In this document: piece by piece, positions 48,132-64,000 of the stretch | Layout of the letters: every line of letters starts with the position of its first letter | Numbering within the stretch: the stretch's first letter is position 1 | Translations under genes and position numbers: made by a program | Source: Nitrospira sp. | Lineage (GTDB): Bacteria > Nitrospirota > Nitrospiria > Nitrospirales > Nitrospiraceae | NCBI GenBank assembly: GCA_030123625.1 | Contig: CP126121.1 | Span: forward strand, 3,636,179 to 3,700,178 | DNA length: 64,000 bases | Direction of reading: 5' to 3' | The notes under the pieces: generated by a model | The model's database searches: none | What the model saw: the letters and a program-made list of their open reading frames with translations, nothing else | Told to the model about the DNA's origin: nothing

Positions 48132-48329
48132 TATCGCCGAGTACGTACATCCGCCGAAACGACGAGTCTGCGGCATGACCCGATCCCGGACGGGAAGTTT
48201 GTGGTAATTGGAAATACGCTGTCGGGCACGATTACAATTATCGATACCAAGACCAAGCAGTATTGCGCGATCCCAAGAATCGGAATGCCGGCCTCTTGTC
48301 GGATTTTAACGACGATCTTGAGGAAGTAT

Positions 48330-48833
48330 TTAGATCGCCGTCAACAGGCCGTCCCCGAATTCCGTCATCTTGCTGCGCAAAGCATCCACAAGTCGTCTGT
48401 ACCGTTCCTCGGCCCAAGCATTGAACGATTCGGCGTCCGAGAACACGAGGTCCCATGCCTTGGCTGCATCCAGCATCAAGAGCTGCTGAGGTGTGTTGTG
48501 TCCCGGAAACAAGACGACAAGGATGGCGGAGTGACCGGTGAGGCTGATGTCGGTGAAAATATGCAGCATGGAGCCGGAGGGAAGCAGGATTTCCCTCGAA
48601 GCGGCTTCGACGAGCGGTTGGTAGAGACGATGCAGGAATTGCGCGGTGACCTCGTGCGGATTGACAGGTGTGAGAAGGCGAGGGTTTGGTTTTCCTCCGA
48701 ATAAGTTCTCTGTCAGGTAGGTGGCCGCTTCCCATGTCGGCATGGCGCCTGAGGCAACTAAGGATTCGCAAAGGTAGGCAATCCAGTTTCGGTTCCGAGG
48801 ACGTTTGCGAACCGCCGTCGATCTTTTCGCCAT
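48330..48833 (-). CDS. Hypothetical protein
   Basis: From the ATG at 48833 the product has 167 residues (NWIAYLCESLVASGAMPTWE, LTPVNPHEVTAQFLHRLYQP, ILLPSGSMLHIFTDISLTGH). It has a basic N-terminus and no signal peptide. I recognise no family. Two hundred bases separate it from the convergent metH stop, without other features. Confidence 0.5.
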   Translation of the reverse strand: MAKRSTAVRKRPRNRNWIAYLCESLVASGAMPTWEAATYLTENLFGGKPNPRLLTPVNPHEVTAQFLHRLYQPLVEAASREILLPSGSMLHIFTDISLTGHSAILVVLFPGHNTPQQLLMLDAAKAWDLVFSDAESFNAWAEERYRRLVDALRSKMTEFGDGLLTAI

Positions 48834-52247: not shown

Positions 52248-52745
<498 letters not shown>

Positions 52746-52800: not shown

Positions 52801-52890
52801 TCACGCCTTGCGCATGAACATCGCCAACATCAGCACGGCAAAAAATATCGCACCTGAAATCGTCAACATAGCTATCTCATCGCTCATCAT
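52801..52890 (-). CDS. Membrane microprotein 1 (29 residues)
   Basis: This tiny protein reads MMSDEIAMLTISGAIFFAVL then MLAMFMRKA. It is one hydrophobic helix with an acidic N-terminal patch and a basic C-terminus, suggesting the N-terminus is outside and the C-terminus in the cytoplasm. The ATG pair at 52890/52887 is preceded by AAAGGACGGGTACCAAT, almost the same as in front of microprotein 3. The shared pattern SD-x-x-MLTIS-x-AI...MLAM-x-x-R in microproteins 1 and 3 makes chance unlikely. A longer upstream frame (from 53013) also encodes this sequence but its N-terminal part overlaps the leader. Confidence 0.7.
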   Translation of the reverse strand: MMSDEIAMLTISGAIFFAVLMLAMFMRKA

Positions 52891-52993
52891 ATTGGTACCC
52901 GTCCTTTCTGTTCCTCCGTTGAAGTGTGAGCTGCCTCCCGCCCGCGGATCTACATAGTGGATCCTCCGGTCTCTGGGAATGAGAAGTACGACA

Positions 52994-53007
52994 GCCTTTT
53001 TCACGCC
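52994..53007 (-). promoter_or_regulatory. Paralogous sigma-54-like promoter before microprotein 1
   Basis: Read on the - strand GGCGTGAAAAAGGC has the GG-N10-GC spacing; the -12 element is weaker (GGC instead of TGC). The sequence around it aligns with the other promoter, including GTACTT and the CCGGAGGATCC motif 25 bases downstream (52959-52969). Confidence 0.45.
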
Positions 53008-53029
53008 GAACATTTCTCACGTCGGCGCA

Positions 53030-53140
53030 TTACCGACTCATGTGGAGCCCTACGGCAGTGAAGAGCATGGCCAACATCATGATTACGATGTATATGACGA
53101 TCCAGATCGCCAGTAGTGTTAGTTCTCCCCTCATACCCAT
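53030..53140 (-). CDS. Membrane microprotein 2 (36 residues)
   Basis: The product is MGMRGELTLLAIWIVIYIVI then MMLAMLFTAVGLHMSR. It is a single transmembrane helix with the same MLAM core as the other two but a different N-terminus and a longer C-terminus. AAAGGAAGGAGAC before the ATG at 53140 is a strong ribosome-binding site. It lies 40 bases after microprotein 3 on the same strand and is probably on the same message. The function is unknown. Confidence 0.7.
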   Translation of the reverse strand: MGMRGELTLLAIWIVIYIVIMMLAMLFTAVGLHMSR

Positions 53141-53180
53141 GTCTCCTTCCTTTCTGCATCAAAACCGTAGGGTGCACGTT

Positions 53181-53267
53181 TCATGTGTCGCGCAAGAGCA
53201 TCGCCAACATGATAATGGCAATGTTTATCGCGACTGAGATCGTCAACATTGTCAGATCACTCATCAT
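53181..53267 (-). CDS. Membrane microprotein 3 (28 residues)
   Basis: The product is MMSDLTMLTISVAINIAIIM then LAMLLRDT. It aligns without gaps to microprotein 1 over its length. The ribosome-binding site is AAAGGAAGGGTACGAAT before a double ATG. A 135-base leader with a GG-N10-GC promoter-like motif lies upstream. It is the first of the microprotein genes after the sigma-54 activator operon on the same strand. The function is unknown. Confidence 0.7.
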   Translation of the reverse strand: MMSDLTMLTISVAINIAIIMLAMLLRDT

Positions 53268-53638
53268 ATTCGTACCCTTCCTTTCTGTATCTCCATCGTG
53301 ATTCATTCACATGGAGGTCGAGGCTTGTGCTCAATCGGATCATGGAATCCATGTTCCACGTTGAACCGTTCTGCGTCGAGGATCCTCCGGCGTTTCTTCA
53401 TGGCAAGTACTAAGCATTTCTTACGCCACACAGGATCTGGACCTTAACCTGTGATATTTCCAGCACCTACACAGATGGACTCATAGCCGGGGCGGCTTGC
53501 CTCTGAATCTGAATGGATTCCGGGTTGAATCAAATTGGATGCGGAAATTTGAGAAAGGACAGTCGATGGGGGTCCGGCAGGTGTTCTGAGACACCGAACG
53601 ACGAGACGAAAACTCTTTGAGGGCTACCGCCTGTTCCT
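53268..53638. other. Leader and spacer upstream of the microproteins
   Basis: These 370 bases separate the frameshifted activator gene from microprotein 3. They contain the promoter-like motif at 53413, the CCGGAGGATCC motif and a potential long leader. Short frames are present but lack protein-like features. Confidence 0.4.
53413..53428 (-). promoter_or_regulatory. Sigma-54-like promoter before microproteins 3 and 2
   Basis: Read on the - strand the sequence is TGGCGTAAGAAATGCT, matching the sigma-54 consensus TGGC-N8-TGC(T/A) with GG and GC exactly 10 bases apart. It lies about 145 bases upstream of microprotein 3. A conserved CCGGAGGATCC motif follows 24 bases downstream (53380-53390). 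A sigma-54 activator gene is adjacent. Confidence 0.55.
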
Positions 53639-55074
53639 TCAGCCCGAGAACGTTGGCGGTTTGCCTGGAATTTGCTTCTGTCGGAGCAATTTGGTCAAGT
53701 AGGTCCGTTGCAGGCCGAGTTCCGCTGCCGCCTTTGTCTGATTCCATCCGTTCCGACGTAAGGCAGCTTCTGGCTATAGGCGTCCATGCTCTGATGATAG
53801 GAGAAAAACAGGAGGTCGCTGTTGGGCTCCTGAGTCACGGGGGACGTGGAAGAAACTGAAGTGGTTAAATCGGGCAATGAAAGGTGTTCCGGTTCGATCC
53901 TGTCGCCCGAGCAGAGGATCAAGGCACGAGTGAGGACGTTCTCCAATTCCCGCACGTTGCCCGGCCAGGGATAGTGTTGCAGCGCTTGGAATGCTTCGTC
54001 GCTGAGGGTCAAGCATTTACACAGGCCGATGTTGCTGGGCCGGTTGAGGAAATGGTCGACGAGGGTGGAAAGATCCTCCATCCGTTCACGCAACGGCGGC
54101 AGGGCGATGGTAATCACGGCAAGGCGAAAGTACAGATCTTCGCGGAACGTGCCTTGACGAATCGCTTGTTTCAGATCTTTGTTCGTGGCGGCGATAAACC
54201 GGACATTGGCTCGTACTTCTTGCGTTCCGCCGACACGATAGAAGGTTCGATCTTGAAGCACCCGCAAGAGATGGCTTTGCATGGTGAGCGGCATGTCGCC
54301 GATCTCGTCAAGAAACAGCGTGCCGCCCTCGGCGATCTCGATCTTGCCGGGCTCCCGCTTGAGGGCTCCGGTGAACGCCCCCTTTTCGTGCCCAAAGAGC
54401 TCGTTCTCCAGGAGGTTCTCAGGGAAGGCGGCGCAATTGACGGCAATAAACGGTTTCGTGGAGCGAGGACTCCACCGATGAATGGCGCGGGCGACCACTT
54501 CTTTCCCCGTCCCCGTTTCGCCGAGCAACAAGACGGTCACGGAGGAAGACGCCGCTTGTCTGGCCACAGTCAATTGATCGCTCATCTGCTTGCTGGTGGA
54601 GACGATCGGTTCGAACTGATCATCGACCTCCTTGCGAAGCGTCTCGACGTGGCGATGGAGGGCGACGGTGGCCAAGGCCTTGTTGATGACGACGGTGAGG
54701 TGGTCGGCGGTGAACGGCTTCGGCACAAAATCGAAGGCGCCCAGTTGCATGGCCTGGACTGCGAGTTCGATGGTTCCATATGCCGTGAGTATGACAATCA
54801 GCGGGCTGGTGTAAGGAGTTGTCTGGGTTGTCTCCTCGTCTTGAGATCGGCTCGGAGCTGATGCCGTACCGATCTGTTTCAACACCTCAATGCCGCTGAT
54901 ATCCGGAATTTTCAAGTCCAGCAAGACAAGATCCGGCTCCTCTTCCCCGATCAAGCGCAAGGCATCCTTGCCGTTCGTCGCCGTCAAGGGTTCGTGTCCC
55001 ATAAAACTGACACGATTCTGCAGGCCCAGGAGGATATCGGGGTCGTCATCGACAACAAGAATTTTAGCGCGCAT
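53639..55074 (-). pseudogene. NtrC-type sigma-54 response regulator with out-of-frame HTH
   Basis: From the ATG at 55074 (GGGAG upstream) the receiver domain shows Asp53 in LLDLKIPDIS. The AAA+ domain has GETGTGKE, the sigma-54 contact motif GAFTGA (GHEKGAFTGALKREPGK) and an intact Arg finger region. The open frame reads through the linker to AYSQKL and then leaves the family sequence, ending at 53695. The Fis-type helix-turn-helix continues in another frame (RNGWNQTKAAAELGLQRTYL, then TKLLRQKQI) to about 53639. Relative to the family about 7-10 bases seem lost near 53763. Without the HTH it could still activate sigma-54 but not bind DNA specifically. Confidence 0.85.
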
Positions 55075-55144
55075 AGCATGTCTCCCTTTTTCGGATATTC
55101 GGTTCTCCTCACACACGATCTGAAGCGATAAGCTCGTTATCTCG

Positions 55145-57463
55145 TTACATTATCCGACCTGGTTCATCCTGTGACCCGGCCACCGGCAGGGTGAAGTAAA
55201 AGCGAGATCCGGCCTCCGGTCGGCTTTCCACCCAAATCCGGCCCTGGTGCATAGTCACCAATGTCTTGGTGATGCACAGTCCAAGTTGAGCGCCTTGTGA
55301 TGTCGGCATGGCCGAGGGCACTCTCGAAAACTCCTCAAAAATGTTTGGGAGATGGGACGGATCGATCCCGCATCCGGTATCGGCGACGCAGGCTTGGACG
55401 AACCCAGGTGGTGATTCGCGAAACTCCACCGTGATGTGTCCACCAGGCGCTGTGAACTTGATTGCGTTCCCAAGGAGATTCACCAGAATCTGCTCCAACT
55501 TGTCGCGGTCGCCATGCACGAGCGGAAGCGACTCGATCGCGGCGATGCTGAGTGATACATTCTTCTCTGCAGCGATCGTCTGTAGGCTGTCCACGGCGAT
55601 TGTCGCAATCCGGCAGATGCAGACCTCTTCCATGCGGAGTTCGACTTTCTTGGTATCAAGACGCGACCAATCGAGCAGTTGGACGATGATTCTTCCAAGC
55701 CTGGAAACGTTATGTTTAATACGGGTGAGATAGGTGTGTTGCAGGTCGGTCAGGGGACCAGTGACGCCGTCGAGCATGTTTTCAGTAAAACTCCGAATCG
55801 CCGTCATGGGAGTCCGCAATTCGTGCGAGACGACGGAGAGAAACGTCGACCGTCGTTGGTCATGCTCTTGAAGTCGTGCGTTGGCTTGAGACAGTTCATC
55901 GGTACGCTGCACGATGCGCTCCTCGAGGTGCTGGGTCAGCTCGGCCAGATCAGAGTACGCCTTGGCATTGTCGATGGCCGCCGCAACGTGACCGGCAATC
56001 GTCAGGAGAATATGAAGATCATCTGTGCTACATCTCAGGGAACCTCGATCACCCGCTAAGTATCCCAGGATCTTGCCATGACTCTGGAGCGGCGCTGCGA
56101 CGAACGACTGTATCCCAGAATGGCGTACCAGCTCTAGCAATGGGGGGTAGAAGCGGTGGCTAAGTGTTTCGACATCATGGATCAAGACTGGTTTGCCGTG
56201 AAGGAGGAGTTCGGCTGTGATACCGCCGTTATTTTCGATGGGCACCTGAAGGCGCTGAACGGCCTGCTCAATTTCCGGTAATACTCCAATGATTCTGGCA
56301 ATGAAGGCGGAGTCCTGTCCTGGGGAATGAAGGACGACCATCATTTTCGAAAAGCCAAGATTTTCAACCATTAATTGGAGGACCGTATCGAGGAGCTGAT
56401 TCATGTCGAGCACGCTGGCGCTTGCGATCGCGGTGCTGGCCTGATGCACCGTGGTCAATTGCCTGATCTGCCGCCTGATTGTGTCGAGATTCTCGGTGAT
56501 CGCCTGGTTTCGATCGTGCAGGGACTGAGTCATCACATTGAACACCTGTGTTAACTGACCGACTTCGTCACTGGTGGTCACCACAAGCGGAATCGGTGCA
56601 TCGTTTCCCTTTGCGATTTGCCTGGCGGCGGAAGCCAGGCGTCGGAGCGGAATCGTAATGCGGGAAGTCAACAGAAGAGTGCTCAGGATGCCTGCCGCGA
56701 TGATGAGTGTCGTGAGGAACGCCACGTTTCGCACGATCTCCAACAAGATTTTTTTGGCTTGCGCATCCGTGATTCCAATCCGCACCAGGCCGACGATCGG
56801 AGAACTGTTCGTCGGCAGAGGGAAACTTCTCTCTTCCAATTCGACCGAAAGTTGCGGCAGGTCAACCTCTACCGAAGATTCACGGAGGACGGGCATGGCG
56901 AAGTCGTACAGAGTTTCATTCCCCATGAGAAAGGAGAGGAGCCAGTTCGACGAGTCGTCTTGAGGAATGAGAATCTGCTCTGAGGAAAACACGAGCTTGG
57001 TCATGAGCGGAGCAGTCAGCGGAGCTTGCAGCAGTGTTTCTGAAATTCGATCATTGGGAAAGATCGGCTGCAAGGTTGAATGAGGAGATCGATTGGACGG
57101 CTTCCGTGTTCGTTTGCTCTGCTGGTTCAGAATGCGACCATCGGAAGAGGCGATCACCACATAGACGACGTGATCGATGGCCATGAGGCTTTGCACGAAT
57201 TGATCGAGGGTGAGGCGATCTTCAAGCACGACGCCCGCAATGCGAAAATGGTCGTTTCGCACGGTGTTGGCCAATAAGATGGTTCCGACTTCTTTCAGGT
57301 TATCGGTCATGGCCCGGCGTCTTGTTTCGATGAAATACCAGCTCAAGGACGAACAGGCCATCACGAGAATGAGGCTGAACAAGATCACGAACTTCACGCG
57401 AAGTCCGAAGAACCGAGCCGCCGGCGGTAGTCCCTGATCCTGTCTTTCGTTCGCCACGTCCAC
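55145..57463 (-). CDS. Sensor histidine kinase (HAMP-GAF-HisKA-HATPase)
   Basis: This 772-residue protein has a first membrane helix (VKFVILFSLILVMACSSLSW), a large periplasmic sensor of about 200 residues, a second helix near 255-275, HAMP, a GAF domain (residues about 350-510), HisKA with SVVSHELRTPMTAI, and an ATPase domain with NLLGNAIKF, DTGCGI and LGLCITKTLV. It should phosphorylate the response regulator encoded 28 bases downstream. The substrate-binding protein encoded just upstream could present the signal. All catalytic motifs are intact. Confidence 0.92.
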   Translation of the reverse strand: MDVANERQDQGLPPAARFFGLRVKFVILFSLILVMACSSLSWYFIETRRRAMTDNLKEVGTILLANTVRNDHFRIAGVVLEDRLTLDQFVQSLMAIDHVVYVVIASSDGRILNQQSKRTRKPSNRSPHSTLQPIFPNDRISETLLQAPLTAPLMTKLVFSSEQILIPQDDSSNWLLSFLMGNETLYDFAMPVLRESSVEVDLPQLSVELEERSFPLPTNSSPIVGLVRIGITDAQAKKILLEIVRNVAFLTTLIIAAGILSTLLLTSRITIPLRRLASAARQIAKGNDAPIPLVVTTSDEVGQLTQVFNVMTQSLHDRNQAITENLDTIRRQIRQLTTVHQASTAIASASVLDMNQLLDTVLQLMVENLGFSKMMVVLHSPGQDSAFIARIIGVLPEIEQAVQRLQVPIENNGGITAELLLHGKPVLIHDVETLSHRFYPPLLELVRHSGIQSFVAAPLQSHGKILGYLAGDRGSLRCSTDDLHILLTIAGHVAAAIDNAKAYSDLAELTQHLEERIVQRTDELSQANARLQEHDQRRSTFLSVVSHELRTPMTAIRSFTENMLDGVTGPLTDLQHTYLTRIKHNVSRLGRIIVQLLDWSRLDTKKVELRMEEVCICRIATIAVDSLQTIAAEKNVSLSIAAIESLPLVHGDRDKLEQILVNLLGNAIKFTAPGGHITVEFRESPPGFVQACVADTGCGIDPSHLPNIFEEFSRVPSAMPTSQGAQLGLCITKTLVTMHQGRIWVESRPEAGSRFYFTLPVAGSQDEPGRIM

Positions 57464-57469
57464 GGCCTC

Positions 57470-58429
57470 TCAATAGGTCTCGTCGATCAGGTTGTCGAGC
57501 TCTTTAGAGATCGTGACCCCCAAATACCGCGCAGTCTTTTGGTTGAGGGTGATTCTGATCCGCTGAACCGAGACAGGCTTAAGCCGAGATGGTTGTTCGC
57601 CGTTCAAAATACGCCTCGCGAGCACGCCGGCCTCCCGGCCCACTTCACTGTAATCAATCGACATGCTGAGCAGCGCCCCGAGGCGCGTAAACTCGGATGA
57701 AAAGCCGACGACGGGGACCTGTTTGGCCACCGCCGATTCGAGGATAAAGCGGATCGACTCGTCCGTCAGCACGGTCGAGTCCGGAATGAGCCATAAGACT
57801 TCCGATTCGGACAAGAGCGCCCGTAGTTGCTGCGGAACGTCCTTCTCGTTCTCGACCGGAAATCCCTGCAATTGAAATTCATAGGCGGAAGCTCGAGATT
57901 CCGCCTCTTTCAGCTTGGGCGCAGTTTTGTCGGGATCGTACATCATACCGATCCGGCGCAGGGTGGGCAGGAACGTGCGCATGATCTTGAACTGACGGTC
58001 CGTCGGAATTTCCAGCAGGACGCCGGTCATATTGTCAGCGTTGAGGCGATGTTTCAAGGGGTCGAGGATCATCATGTAGAGAACCGGGACATCCACGATC
58101 TCCAACTTGGCCGCCAGTGCCGCTTTAAGGCCGACAGCGACCACGAGGGCGGAGTCGGAGGCGCGGATTTTTCTGGCGAGTTGCCTTCCCCGCTCGAGAT
58201 CGCCGCGCAGGTCGTATTCGATATAGGTGGCCCCGCTGGGCGCCGTCGTTTTGAAGCCTTCAACCGCTTCCGTGTAAGCTTTGAGGTCGGACGATTTGAG
58301 AACGGCAATCTCCATGCCGGCCGCCTGTGTGCGGCCAGAGAGCAAGCACGAAAGTGCGATGAGCGCGACAAACGTCGACCAGGCGCGAGCAAAGCGCTTC
58401 CATGTCTTTTCCTGGCCTCCTACAGTCAT
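57470..58429 (-). CDS. ABC-type substrate-binding protein (TrpX/COG2984-like)
   Basis: From the ATG at 58429 the product has 319 residues. A signal peptide (STFVALIALSCLLSGRTQA) leads a two-lobed periplasmic binding protein: MEIAVLKSSDLKAYTEAVEG, then VVAVGLKAALAAKLEIVDVP and GVLLEIPTDRQFKIMRTFLP. No ABC permease or ATPase is adjacent. With the histidine kinase immediately after it (6 bases), it may act as a periplasmic sensor, as in similar orphan cassettes. The start at 58516 overlaps the TonB fragment and is less likely. Confidence 0.88.
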   Translation of the reverse strand: MTVGGQEKTWKRFARAWSTFVALIALSCLLSGRTQAAGMEIAVLKSSDLKAYTEAVEGFKTTAPSGATYIEYDLRGDLERGRQLARKIRASDSALVVAVGLKAALAAKLEIVDVPVLYMMILDPLKHRLNADNMTGVLLEIPTDRQFKIMRTFLPTLRRIGMMYDPDKTAPKLKEAESRASAYEFQLQGFPVENEKDVPQQLRALLSESEVLWLIPDSTVLTDESIRFILESAVAKQVPVVGFSSEFTRLGALLSMSIDYSEVGREAGVLARRILNGEQPSRLKPVSVQRIRITLNQKTARYLGVTISKELDNLIDETY

Positions 58430-58493
58430 AGCATCATGAATGATGTTCGAGCAGAGCGCAGGGACTCCGTAATTTACTATAATGTTAGTGTAG

Positions 58494-58955
58494 CTAAGTA
58501 AAATGCATGCTAGCACATTTTCCCGACTGCACTAATATCGCACCATTAACCAACCCATAACGCCCATCGACCATTACCAGCAATTTGTTGGCATTTAATT
58601 GATTGTCTCCTCGAATGCTGACGTTGAAGTCGGCGCCGGTGACCTGCATGACCTCGATACCCGGCACACGAGGCAAGATCGTCGGGAGGTCTGTGGCGCC
58701 GGAATGGCGAATATCTTCGTCAGTGATCACATAAACGTTCGATGGAGACTGGGAAATCGGTTGCTCGTAGCGTGAGGCGATGCTGACCGTTTCTTCTTCT
58801 TTGAGCAGTTGGAGTTCGTCAGGGATGCCTTGGTCGGGTGGTGTGTCCCATGCATTCTTTTGATCTTCTGTCCGAGCAACAGAGGGATTCATCAAAAAGA
58901 CAACGACGACGAAGGAAAGACACGCAAGAGTGAGATTTTGCCGATGTCGGGCCAT
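58494..58955 (-). pseudogene. Truncated TonB-dependent receptor (plug only)
   Basis: From the ATG at 58955 the frame has a signal peptide (LACLSFVVVVFLMNPSVARTE), a TonB-box-like segment and the start of a plug domain (SNVYVITDEDIRHSGATDLP, TILPRVPGIEVMQVTGADFN, VSIRGDNQLNANKLLVMVDG). It ends soon after DGRYGLVNGAILV, where a full receptor continues for another 500 residues of barrel. No barrel is found downstream. It is a remnant, or a free plug if selected. Confidence 0.8.
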
Positions 58956-59586
58956 GTGCGTCCTATTGGTAAAGCTGCACAAGCGATAACAATGCCCTTC
59001 ATGTACCGTGCAAAAAGCGCATCATTCCATGGATCGGCACGTGAGAGCTTCGGCGCCAAGAGGCTGCCATCTGCCTCATGTGGTGACGATCGTAGAAGGT
59101 TAGGAACAAAAGAAAAAAACGAGGATCTCCCCGAGGCAGTTTCTCGACTTTACGGAACTCTAATCCGGCCGTGAACCGGCTGCCCTTAGCTTGCTCCCTT
59201 TCGGTCGTGGTACCTTCGATCAAGTCCCGATCAACCGAGAAAGGCTGAATTGCTGGCCCAGGAAATGAGATGAATTATCTCCAAGAGTAATGTTGACATC
59301 GTCAGTTCTTAAATCGTTTGAACTCTTCTCCAAGGTGCCCATTATGTGAGCAACATTTCACGCTTTGGGCCTTTAAGGGCTAGACCAATCCCTTCCAAAA
59401 GGCGAGGACGATCATCGCCTAAGTTGCCATAGTCCTTGTTGCACAGATGTGCGTGAGCCGACGTCAATAGAGTGCTCTAATCAACGCAAGGCAATGCACA
59501 TGCCATCCATAGGTTTACTGCCAGGGGGAGTAAACCTATAAAATTTCAAATTGTTAGAGGTATGTGTTTGTATTGAGAAATCAGAA
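58956..59586. other. Intergenic region with a perfect hairpin
   Basis: About 630 bases without a convincing gene. The outstanding feature is the inverted repeat at 59509-59539 (separate entry). AT-rich sequence on its right side fits a promoter or a terminator tail. GC content is visibly lower than in the flanking housekeeping regions. Confidence 0.4.
59509..59539. terminator. Perfect 11-bp inverted repeat, loop GCCAGGGGG
   Basis: ATAGGTTTACT and AGTAAACCTAT pair perfectly around a 9-base loop. AAAATTT follows. It could be a terminator for transcripts from either side or a protein-binding operator. It lies about 280 bases from the end of the YcaO-TfuA cassette. Confidence 0.6.
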
Positions 59587-59814
59587 ATGCAACTTGAGGT
59601 GAATCAAAAAGGATTCTTTACTGAATCTAATTTGATTACATGGCCCGGAAAGGCTAAATCTGTTTCTAGGGAAGGGCGGGCGCGACGATTACTTCAGCTT
59701 GACTCGACCGAATACTTCCTTTTTGTTGTCAAGTCACACCATCATGAGCCTACTAGGGGTCCGGGAAGGTGGACAAGAACCCTTTCAAGGTTAACTATCA
59801 TCCCTGATGCATAG
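59587..59814 (+). CDS. Unclear small open frame convergent to the amine oxidase
   Basis: Seventy-five codons from ATG 59587 (QLEVNQKGFFTESNLITWPG, RRLLQLDSTEYFLFVVKSHH) or 87 from TTG 59551. The tail is Arg/Gly/Pro-rich (TRGPGRWTRTL). No ribosome-binding site is strong. It could be a degraded gene or a substrate peptide of the neighbouring cassette, but it has no Cys or Ser/Thr-rich core. Confidence 0.25.
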   Translation: MQLEVNQKGFFTESNLITWPGKAKSVSREGRARRLLQLDSTEYFLFVVKSHHHEPTRGPGRWTRTLSRLTIIPDA

Positions 59815-61231: not shown

Positions 61232-62620
61232 TTAAGCCACTGTTCGATTCGGTCTAGTTATTCCCTTAGTGGTGGTCATGCGTTTTGTATGATGCATGAC
61301 GTAACATCTCTCTCTTCTGACTGCTTCCAAGAAGTCGTTCTTGTCCTGGAATCCTTGGGCTTTGGCATAGAAATCAGGATCGTTCAAAGGTAATTGTGTC
61401 AACCGACTATGAAAGTACCATTCCAGAAGGGCGGTATCATCCATGCCGACATCTTGTTCTGTCGGGTTCTCCAGCCCAAGTTCGCTCAGCACCTGACGTT
61501 TATGAGCAGCGCGCTTTGCAAGATCACGATATTGACCGCTGAGCTTCAGATACCGCGGAAGCAGTCGTTCCGCTCCTTCACGAAGGCGCGCGCGTACTTT
61601 TTCTAACTTCTCTTCTTCATGCATGTACTGAAGAAACTCTTGCTTTTTTAGAGATTGGTCTTTCAGCCATCTGCGAATGTCTGACGCGCTGAATAGCTTC
61701 CGTGATTCTCGAAAAGCAACAGTAGTTTTAAGTATGGCGATATCGGTGCTCTTTTCATCATTGAGAAATAGTTTTTCATGAAGAAGAAGTCTGAGTAAGC
61801 AGTCGTCAGTTGCTCTTGTGTATGAGGGGCCGTCGAGCCTGAGTTCCTCTAGAACAGACCAAGTCAGGATAGATTCTGGTGAGGCTGTCTCCATCCTTAG
61901 TTCGCCGGCTTCATGCGTGAGCTGTTCCCACATGTAAGTATGCTCGAAAGCATAGTCGACTTCCTTAGGATGCGGTTTATTTGCCGTTAGTCTACGTATT
62001 GATCGCAGCATGGCAATGGCATCCTGAAGTTTCTGATCTACACGTCCCTTGGGTAACCAGTGTTCAAGGTTTGCGAGATCTTTCGTGGGCAAGCCTTCCG
62101 CACGCCCACGGGCGAGAACAGCATGGTAGGTTCGCTCGGGATAGAATAGTTGCTTGGCTATTCGTTCCAGTGTAGAGCGGGTCGTGGAACGAATGATGCT
62201 CTGGCGTTCAGCCTTTTCGAGTGTGTATCGGATATTCACCATGGCATCAGATGACGGAACATAGTCCTTACTATGTGTCACCGCTACTTCATCATCGTCC
62301 TCAAGCTCGCCATCACGAAACGCTTCATAAATTTTTCCAACGCCTTTCATCCCAAAAGCGTCCAACTCAGCCGCACGGAGCGCTCCCATACTCGCAGCTC
62401 CGAAAACATGGATGCCTTGAGCCATGGCCCAGAGAATTTCTTTGTGCCAAACTGCGGGAACTCGGTCAAAGTAGCCATCGATAATTCCGATGGCGAACGG
62501 TTTGAATGCAGCAACCCGATAGACATCTCCTTGAGAAACTGGTGGCAGATACGTGGCAGTCAGCTCTGATCGTGCCCTTTCAGGGCGAATGGTGGGGCCG
62601 GCAAAGACGTAGACACTCAT
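61232..62620 (-). CDS. TfuA-domain protein with long C-terminal extension
   Basis: This 462-residue protein begins with a TfuA core: SVYVFAGPTI, VYRVAAFKPFAIGIIDGYFD, WHKEILWAMAQGIHVFGAAS and MGALRAAELDAFGMKGVGKI. TfuA proteins partner YcaO enzymes to install thioamides, supplying sulfur in ways still debated. The 300-residue extension is helical and lacks obvious domains (LRRLLHE-like and KLSGQYRDLAKRAAHKRQVL). It overlaps the YcaO stop by 4 bases (ATGA). The combined length is greater than that of many TfuA proteins. Confidence 0.88.
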   Translation of the reverse strand: MSVYVFAGPTIRPERARSELTATYLPPVSQGDVYRVAAFKPFAIGIIDGYFDRVPAVWHKEILWAMAQGIHVFGAASMGALRAAELDAFGMKGVGKIYEAFRDGELEDDDEVAVTHSKDYVPSSDAMVNIRYTLEKAERQSIIRSTTRSTLERIAKQLFYPERTYHAVLARGRAEGLPTKDLANLEHWLPKGRVDQKLQDAIAMLRSIRRLTANKPHPKEVDYAFEHTYMWEQLTHEAGELRMETASPESILTWSVLEELRLDGPSYTRATDDCLLRLLLHEKLFLNDEKSTDIAILKTTVAFRESRKLFSASDIRRWLKDQSLKKQEFLQYMHEEEKLEKVRARLREGAERLLPRYLKLSGQYRDLAKRAAHKRQVLSELGLENPTEQDVGMDDTALLEWYFHSRLTQLPLNDPDFYAKAQGFQDKNDFLEAVRRERCYVMHHTKRMTTTKGITRPNRTVA

Positions 62621-63885
62621 TGTACTAACTTACTCATTCGGTGCGCTCTAGGACCGGGACAATACAAAGGATGGTCGTCATGGGCTTCCAGTCCTGGAAT
62701 AAGGACTTTGACGACTTGATACGGAAGTTCAGGACCCGTTAGAGGAATGACGATAACTTGCTCTATCCCAACGGTTTTCAATCTTCCTAGGATCAACTCA
62801 AGATCGGCGTTAAAAGTGTTGCCGTCCAGCGATGAGCTTGGCCGGCTGAATTTTTTCACTTTCCCACTTGCCCGAAGCGAGCAGTATTCAAGGAGGTCAG
62901 AATGTCGAAAACGTGAGGGCTCGTACTGGTCCCGGAACATATCGTCGCGGGCTCCCGCTATGAGAGTCAGCCGGCTTTGAGCTGCCTCAGTGATGGCGCG
63001 TAGGAGCGCAATGTCAGCAGAGAGATGACAACCCATGCCTGACGAAGTATAAACGAGTCGTGAGGGGTCGCTAGCTCCTTCATGAAGAAGACAAAAGAAA
63101 GTAGGAATGCCAACGTCTGACGTAATATTCCAGACTAGTGTTTGAATCCCTGATTTGTGAAATTGAGCAATTAGTTGCTTGATTTCCGGCTCTTTCCAGC
63201 TCTCAATGTCCACCCAACTGGATTTCGCTACCTGTAGATCACACAAAAACCAGAGAGTTGTGGCATCACGTTCCACCACTTCACAGATGGCATGGACAAT
63301 GGCTTCCAGAAGGTGGTTGCCGGAAGCCAAACCATTCGATGACATGCCAAAGCAGCTTTGACCTGGTAGGTGGTGGCTTACTGTGTCAGCAGTCACACAT
63401 TCGTACGGTATCCAGATCGGTTGGTCCCCAATAAGATCGTGACCCTCAACCCATAACAATTCTCGATCAGGCTTGTGCTGCAGCCAATTGACGTAGGGCA
63501 AACGTTCTATGCTCACAACATTGAAGCGAGTGGCTATATGATGGAATGACCCTTTCTGCATCGGAAGGGAGATATGTTCAGCATGATATAGCTCTATCGA
63601 TTCCATGAGGCCTGAAGCTTTCGCAGCATCCAGGGTCAGCCCCTTCCCTTGTGAGACTGACAGGGAACGCGAATTGGGCCGGCAAACCATCACAACCGGC
63701 AAACCAAGCCAATCAAGGCCTGTCACATTAGCGATGCGTGTTATGCCAAACTTCTTCGTCAACGGCATGATCTTGCGAACGGTAATGGCAGGCGGAATAG
63801 TCCGCTGCGTACCCTTCCAGTATTGTTTTAAGACACTAGTCTTGCGAGCAGAGGAGATACGGCGGGAAAGATTGGATAGTGCCAT
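62617..63885 (-). CDS. YcaO-domain cyclodehydratase/thioamidase
   Basis: From the ATG at 63885 the product has 422 residues; a GTG 45 bases upstream is possible. ATP-binding segments of YcaO are present: SVSQGKGLTLDAAKASGLME, SIELYHAEH, GNHLLEAIVHAICEVVERDA. A Pro-rich PxPxP C-terminus typical of azole cyclodehydratases is absent (it ends GPRAHRMSKLVQ), which fits TfuA-coupled thioamidation instead. YcaO activates a backbone amide with ATP. The precursor peptide is not encoded within the visible upstream 115 bases and probably lies beyond the window or elsewhere. Confidence 0.9.
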   Translation of the reverse strand: MALSNLSRRISSARKTSVLKQYWKGTQRTIPPAITVRKIMPLTKKFGITRIANVTGLDWLGLPVVMVCRPNSRSLSVSQGKGLTLDAAKASGLMESIELYHAEHISLPMQKGSFHHIATRFNVVSIERLPYVNWLQHKPDRELLWVEGHDLIGDQPIWIPYECVTADTVSHHLPGQSCFGMSSNGLASGNHLLEAIVHAICEVVERDATTLWFLCDLQVAKSSWVDIESWKEPEIKQLIAQFHKSGIQTLVWNITSDVGIPTFFCLLHEGASDPSRLVYTSSGMGCHLSADIALLRAITEAAQSRLTLIAGARDDMFRDQYEPSRFRHSDLLEYCSLRASGKVKKFSRPSSSLDGNTFNADLELILGRLKTVGIEQVIVIPLTGPELPYQVVKVLIPGLEAHDDHPLYCPGPRAHRMSKLVQ

Positions 63886-64000
63886 AGTCACAGCCCAATT
63901 TGCTGTCAAAACAGGAACGAGAACGAACACTGATAGATTGAGCGATACTAATTGAGTTTAGATAGAAACCTCTTAAGAGCTTCGTTCACGGAATGATACA

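Follow-up and report, generated by a model that had tools for sequence, protein, structure and literature searches.

A Nitrospira family of single-helix membrane microproteins probably controlled by an adjoining sigma-54 two-component system

The DNA analysed here (the window) is a stretch of 64,000 nucleotides from a Nitrospira genome that consists of a single contig of 4,691,675 bases. Three very short genes lie in tandem on its minus strand, next to an operon encoding a sensor system (Table 1). An initial annotation had placed three tandem frames here, and their coordinates were confirmed. It had also described a single hydrophobic helix with an MLAM core in each of them, which is borne out by the sequences: the core is common to copies 1, 2 and 3, and every frame contains one hydrophobic segment with a Kyte-Doolittle mean of 2.4–2.9 over 19 residues. 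Good ribosome-binding sites had been noted as well, matching almost base for base before copies 1 and 3; the 20 nt upstream of copy 1 (CAGAAAGGAAGGGTACGAAT) and of copy 3 (CAGAAAGGACGGGTACCAAT) are indeed identical at 18 positions. The MSD..MLTIS pattern ascribed to these two copies is shared, although the spacer of copy 3 is one residue longer, but the basic C-terminus ascribed to both cannot be upheld for copy 1, the end of which (LLRDT) is hardly basic. At least two of the frames had been regarded as paralogous. Copy 2 is also a family member, so that all three belong to one family.

Table 1. Genes and regulatory sites around the microgene array (positions in the window)
Feature	Position	Strand	Remarks
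Microprotein copy 3	52801..52890	-	29 aa, MMSDEIAMLTISGAIFFAVLMLAMFMRKA; subtype like the single copy of most relatives
Degenerate sigma-54-like site	52992..53008	-	CGGCGTGAAAAAGGCTG; before copy 3
Microprotein copy 2	53030..53140	-	36 aa, MGMRGELTLLAIWIVIYIVIMMLAMLFTAVGLHMSR; divergent subtype
Microprotein copy 1	53181..53267	-	28 aa, MMSDLTMLTISVAINIAIIMLAMLLRDT; possible second ATG at 53264
Putative sigma-54 -24/-12 promoter	53412..53428	-	TGGCGTAAGAAATGCTT; 161 nt before copy 1
Putative operator (upstream activating sequence)	53505..53520	-	GAATCCATTCAGATTC; inverted repeat GAATC-N6-GATTC
Second putative operator of the pair	53527..53542	-	GCATCCAATTTGATTC; 22 bp further upstream
Regulator helix-turn-helix remnant	53639..53767	-	out of frame; ends ...RNGWNQTKAAAELGLQRTYLTKLLRQKQIPGKPPTFSG
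NtrC-type response regulator	53695..55116	-	receiver and sigma-54 activator domain; frameshift around codon 451
Histidine kinase	55145..57463	-	HAMP, GAF, HisKA, HATPase
Periplasmic ABC-type substrate-binding protein	57470..58516	-	PF04392
Truncated TonB-dependent receptor	58494..58982	-	only ~131 N-terminal residues of 673
Putative sigma-54 promoter	59490..59505	-	TGGCATGTGCATTGCC; upstream of the receptor/sensor operon
Putative operator	59601..59616	-	GAATCCTTTTTGATTC; upstream of the receptor/sensor operon

With copy 3 as query, matches were obtained in ~20 genomes of the same genus, in line with the homology search proposed in the initial annotation; these orthologues show 64–86% identity, with E values down to 4e-10 per genome. 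An alignment-based search together with a six-frame profile search of the loci raised the count to 25 intact syntenic members among 79 Nitrospira genomes (genus by record titles). Most relatives carry a single copy of the copy 3 type, the sole syntenic copy of G006, G011 and G108 resembles copy 2, and no genome other than that of the window, G016 and G044 was found to carry the three-copy array, which keeps the same order in all three. Such orthologues, together with the shared array order, are well beyond what chance would produce. Frameshifts or stops in related genomes had been named as evidence that would speak against real genes: the microgene frame is broken in four genomes (G020, G099, G031 and G101), whereas the great majority of frames are intact. 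In a family scan of named genomes every matching record bore Nitrospira or Nitrospiraceae in its title, and a search of the phylum sample at E <= 0.001 gave no member in its 70 other genera. Profile searches gave no match in Pfam and only YtzI in NCBIfam (E 0.45, far below cut-off), matches in PHROGs and PDB were at chance level, and no account of such a Nitrospira family came up in literature searches. We describe a family without an earlier name, predicted to comprise single-helix membrane proteins of 28–50 residues.

The codon pattern indicates that purifying selection acts on the microprotein. Among 14 orthologues of equal length the counts of variable columns at codon positions 1, 2 and 3 are 14, 9 and 21, and the pooled pN/pS is 0.31; the length differences among the other orthologues are whole codons, which keeps the frame. 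Copy 3 of the window differs from its counterpart at locus L033 by 10 synonymous and 4 non-synonymous changes. The signal is strong for copy 1 (window, G016 and G044: pS 0.145, pN 0.011) and weaker for copies 2 and 3 in the three closest genomes (pS 0.112, pN 0.049 and pS 0.162, pN 0.087, respectively). The leader of the syntenic microgene, named A1, contains large indels and no conserved RNA fold, which speaks for the protein being the product, and the leader of an unlinked paralogue, A2, shows a four-pair hairpin only. In an Rfam search tRNA-Pro was the sole match above threshold. Together with the 25 intact syntenic loci and the conserved ribosome-binding site, these data strongly support the earlier proposal of a real gene family, and we regard it as nearly certain that copies 1–3 are genuine protein-coding genes of one family.

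At the intact loci, as far as the contigs extend, the microgene lies directly downstream of an operon for the PF04392 binding protein, the histidine kinase and the sigma-54 response regulator. Contigs that reach beyond the microgene usually encode RdgB and RNase PH there, on the opposite strand; these next conserved genes, with tRNA-Pro, are convergent to the microgene operon. Between the array and tRNA-Pro the window holds five repeat units (52321–52730) with start-to-start distances of 74–95 nt. An 86-nt probe of one unit matched the genome at a single additional site beyond that array, and similar units occur at the corresponding place in G055 (L090). On the far side, TfuA-related and YcaO proteins are encoded side by side at 61232–63930, with matches to McrA-glycine thioamidation profiles below or near cut-off. 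These genes (61–64 kb) were considered as a peptide-modification partner and rejected as a conserved one, since no TfuA, YcaO or amine oxidase homologue was found in the relatives' loci searched.

Two genes of the operon are damaged in the window species. The TonB receptor is a complete protein of 673 residues in relatives and stands complete before the operon in L036, L037 and L040. The regulator carries a 10-nt deletion at ~53763/53764, where AAGCTG is directly followed by CCTTACG and G044 reads AAGCTGATTGAGACTGCCTTACG; as a result the C-terminal helix-turn-helix is out of frame and the DNA-binding domain is lost. The receiver and AAA+ domains are present, but with the Fis-type helix-turn-helix out of frame the NtrC-type domain set is incomplete. 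In relatives the regulator orthologues can be aligned over their whole length, and no other one among the compared loci ends at the deletion of the window, while L049 is split elsewhere. Despite this damage to regulator and receptor, microgenes 1–3 are all intact. As the window regulator lacks its DNA-binding domain, the array there may depend on a different activator with the same site specificity or may be poorly expressed.

The initial annotation had remarked on the location next to a sigma-54 activator operon. The link appears stronger than claimed: a conserved promoter and operator stand directly before the array, making the microgenes the probable target of the operon beyond being a mere neighbour. 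It is this combination of sigma-54 site and operator, reported here for the first time, that ties the microgenes to the adjoining two-component system. A GG-N10-GC site lies between regulator gene and microgene in all 25 intact loci and is TGGYNNAAGAAATGCTT-like in most of them, and an inverted-repeat operator is found ~90–110 bp upstream of the sigma-54 site in nearly all. The pair of operator and sigma-54 site is present in none of 10 loci without a trace of the microgene, two of which hold an isolated motif match. Scored alone, the promoter of the window reaches p = 0.053; compared with shuffles, p <= 0.05 was obtained for the A1 site in 14 of 24 loci, and the top score fell on a different position in L040, L041 and L046. 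As significance at single loci is modest, the argument for the promoter rests on conservation. A genome-wide count of the sigma-54 consensus with two mismatches was uninformative (678 matches versus 703 in the control). RpoN is encoded in the window genome (PF04552, E 4.6e-58). Given the conserved sites, the microgenes are very probably under sigma-54 control, and all three copies of the array are probably transcribed from the promoter before copy 1. The degenerate site before copy 3 is deleted in G016 and is thus probably not needed. In L077 and L078 (genomes G116 and G057) operator and promoter are kept but the first gene is different: it encodes a secreted-looking lactonase-type beta-propeller protein (660 residues in L077, 4082–6064), followed by an A remnant and a frame of the B type, a second microprotein family described below. 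The initial stretch of a window frame at 48201–48704 resembles part of the L077 protein.

Allowing two mismatches at most, a search with the operator GAATCCATTCNGATTC gave 33 matches in the window genome versus 1 for a reversed-pattern control. Of 17 loci checked, 13 have the same operators before the sensor operon, several of them with a sigma-54 site, and this common operator suggests that the sensor operon is positively autoregulated. Two further places in the window genome (L184, 3859–5571, and L183, 4428–4600) hold operator pairs spaced by ~21 bp and, ~90 bp on, a sigma-54 site; one is before a small lipoprotein-like gene and one near a papain-family protease gene. The unlinked paralogue A2 (MFGDMAMITIWVSLNMAIMMLMMFMYHIGR and similar) occurs at 20 loci in 19 genomes (L050, L053, L054, L098–L113 and L115). 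In 19 of these loci a strong sigma-54 site stands ~112 nt ahead of the ATG, and L108 has one at 256 nt; an operator of a different type, GTATC-N6-GATAC, is present in 16 loci. By reading, the A2 neighbours appear to include metalloprotease-like and polyprenyl-synthase-like proteins. Family B (MMMLMLLNIGVLVIGAVFLMYGALGPDRK) comes after A in many relatives and was not found in the window.

Taken together, we propose with a probability of about 0.7 that the genes encode a Nitrospira-specific family of inner-membrane microproteins, induced by the adjoining sigma-54 two-component circuit and modulating a membrane partner. Gene content, selection, synteny and the conservation of promoter and operator can be read from the genomes compared; from these we infer transcription by the neighbouring regulator, membrane insertion, topology and the modulatory role. 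The periplasmic binding protein, with the TonB receptor in some species, would pass a signal to the neighbouring histidine kinase, which would phosphorylate the NtrC-type activator. The activator would then bind the paired GAATC-N6-GATTC operators and make sigma-54 RNA polymerase transcribe both the sensor operon and the microprotein operon. A membrane location is predicted because the proteins are hydrophobic. The positive-inside rule is an established basis for deriving topology from charge, and the acidic SDE start and the RK end make an N-out/C-in orientation in the inner membrane probable. There the microproteins may modulate a membrane partner of the circuit, a kinase or transporter; by analogy with MgrB, SafA, MgtS and AcrZ we put the odds of such a role at about even, while feedback specifically on the cognate kinase seems rather unlikely. 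The envelope-stress or transporter-regulating role suggested by the initial annotation likewise stands as inference.

Several other products and functions were weighed. Type I toxin-like peptides (TisB, Ibs and Ldr) are tandem hydrophobic peptides that depolarise the membrane when induced, and small size, a single hydrophobic helix and tandem paralogues are features they have in common with the microproteins; TisB has 29 amino acids and is also induced by a stress regulator. However, no antisense RNA signal was found, as a consensus scan of the region returned no sigma-70-like antisense promoter, and the mRNA leader lacks the conserved structure usual for type I toxins. A dedicated sigma-54 two-component system and strict genus-wide synteny would also be unusual for such toxins, and we consider this function improbable. 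Size and topology would also suit accessory subunits like CydX or KdpF, small proteins that a larger membrane complex would need in stoichiometric amounts under the induced condition, and the same promoter drives the beta-propeller protein, A remnants and B-type frame in G116 and G057. But the operon holds no conserved gene for a large complex and searches of Pfam, NCBIfam and PDB matched the family to no such subunit, which leaves this explanation unlikely.

The frames could also be incidental to a sigma-54-dependent regulatory RNA like Qrr of Vibrio, as binding protein, kinase, NtrC-type regulator and short transcripts in multiple copies resemble LuxPQ-LuxO-Qrr. Codon-level selection, in-frame length changes, conserved ribosome-binding sites and a leader that has large indels and lacks a consensus fold argue against it and make an RNA product hardly probable at all. 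Methionine makes up 14–27% of the non-initiator residues in most A1 members and 17–28% in A2, compared with ~3% in hydrophobic segments of window proteins, as might be expected if these membrane peptides bound copper(I) as part of a metal-sensing circuit. Yet syntenic members of the G006/G011/G108 type are almost free of methionine (0.03), and the TonB receptor is similar to receptors of the colicin I/BtuB/siderophore type, with no specific likeness to copper receptors; the chances of a copper function appear slim. We also give very little weight to the idea of a Gram-negative peptide autoinduction loop, in which whole microproteins or fragments of them would serve as the extracellular signal that their own circuit detects. 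The TonB receptor would import the hydrophobic peptide, the periplasmic binding protein would bind it, and the kinase would sense it and turn on receptor operon and peptide genes via the same operator.

The membrane microprotein reading is of interest since it concerns the bacteria responsible for nitrite oxidation and complete nitrification, and a family without a profile in the annotation libraries searched, tied to a specific regulatory circuit with defined operator and promoter and present at two unlinked loci. With circuit, operator and promoter defined, its function is directly testable: inducer, sigma-54 dependence and membrane partner can be sought from known coordinates.

Among known systems, the window regulator is related to PrsR of the PEP-CTERM system PrsK/PrsR (PMC1569441), with 399 bits, below the cut-off of 502.6. 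The Nitrospira operon differs in that the predicted target is a microprotein and no PEP-CTERM protein or exosortase was noted in it. Similar in size and build are MgrB, SafA, MgtS, AcrZ and KdpF, single-helix inner-membrane proteins of ~30–50 amino acids that are often under stress or two-component control and modulate a kinase or transporter. The Nitrospira proteins share the single helix, the size and the link to a two-component system but are set apart by the lack of a curated profile match, by putative sigma-54 control, by tandem copies and by a second paralogous locus. In Vibrio, a periplasmic binding protein, a kinase and a sigma-54 activator control several short sigma-54 transcripts, one of them beside the regulator gene. 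Compared with this LuxPQ-LuxO-Qrr quorum-sensing circuit (e.g. PMC2680268), the Nitrospira circuit has the same types of components and short, predicted sigma-54-dependent transcripts in multiple copies. However, its regulator scores 354.8 bits on the LuxO model against a cut-off of 800, its binding protein belongs to PF04392, and its product would be a conserved membrane microprotein in place of an sRNA.
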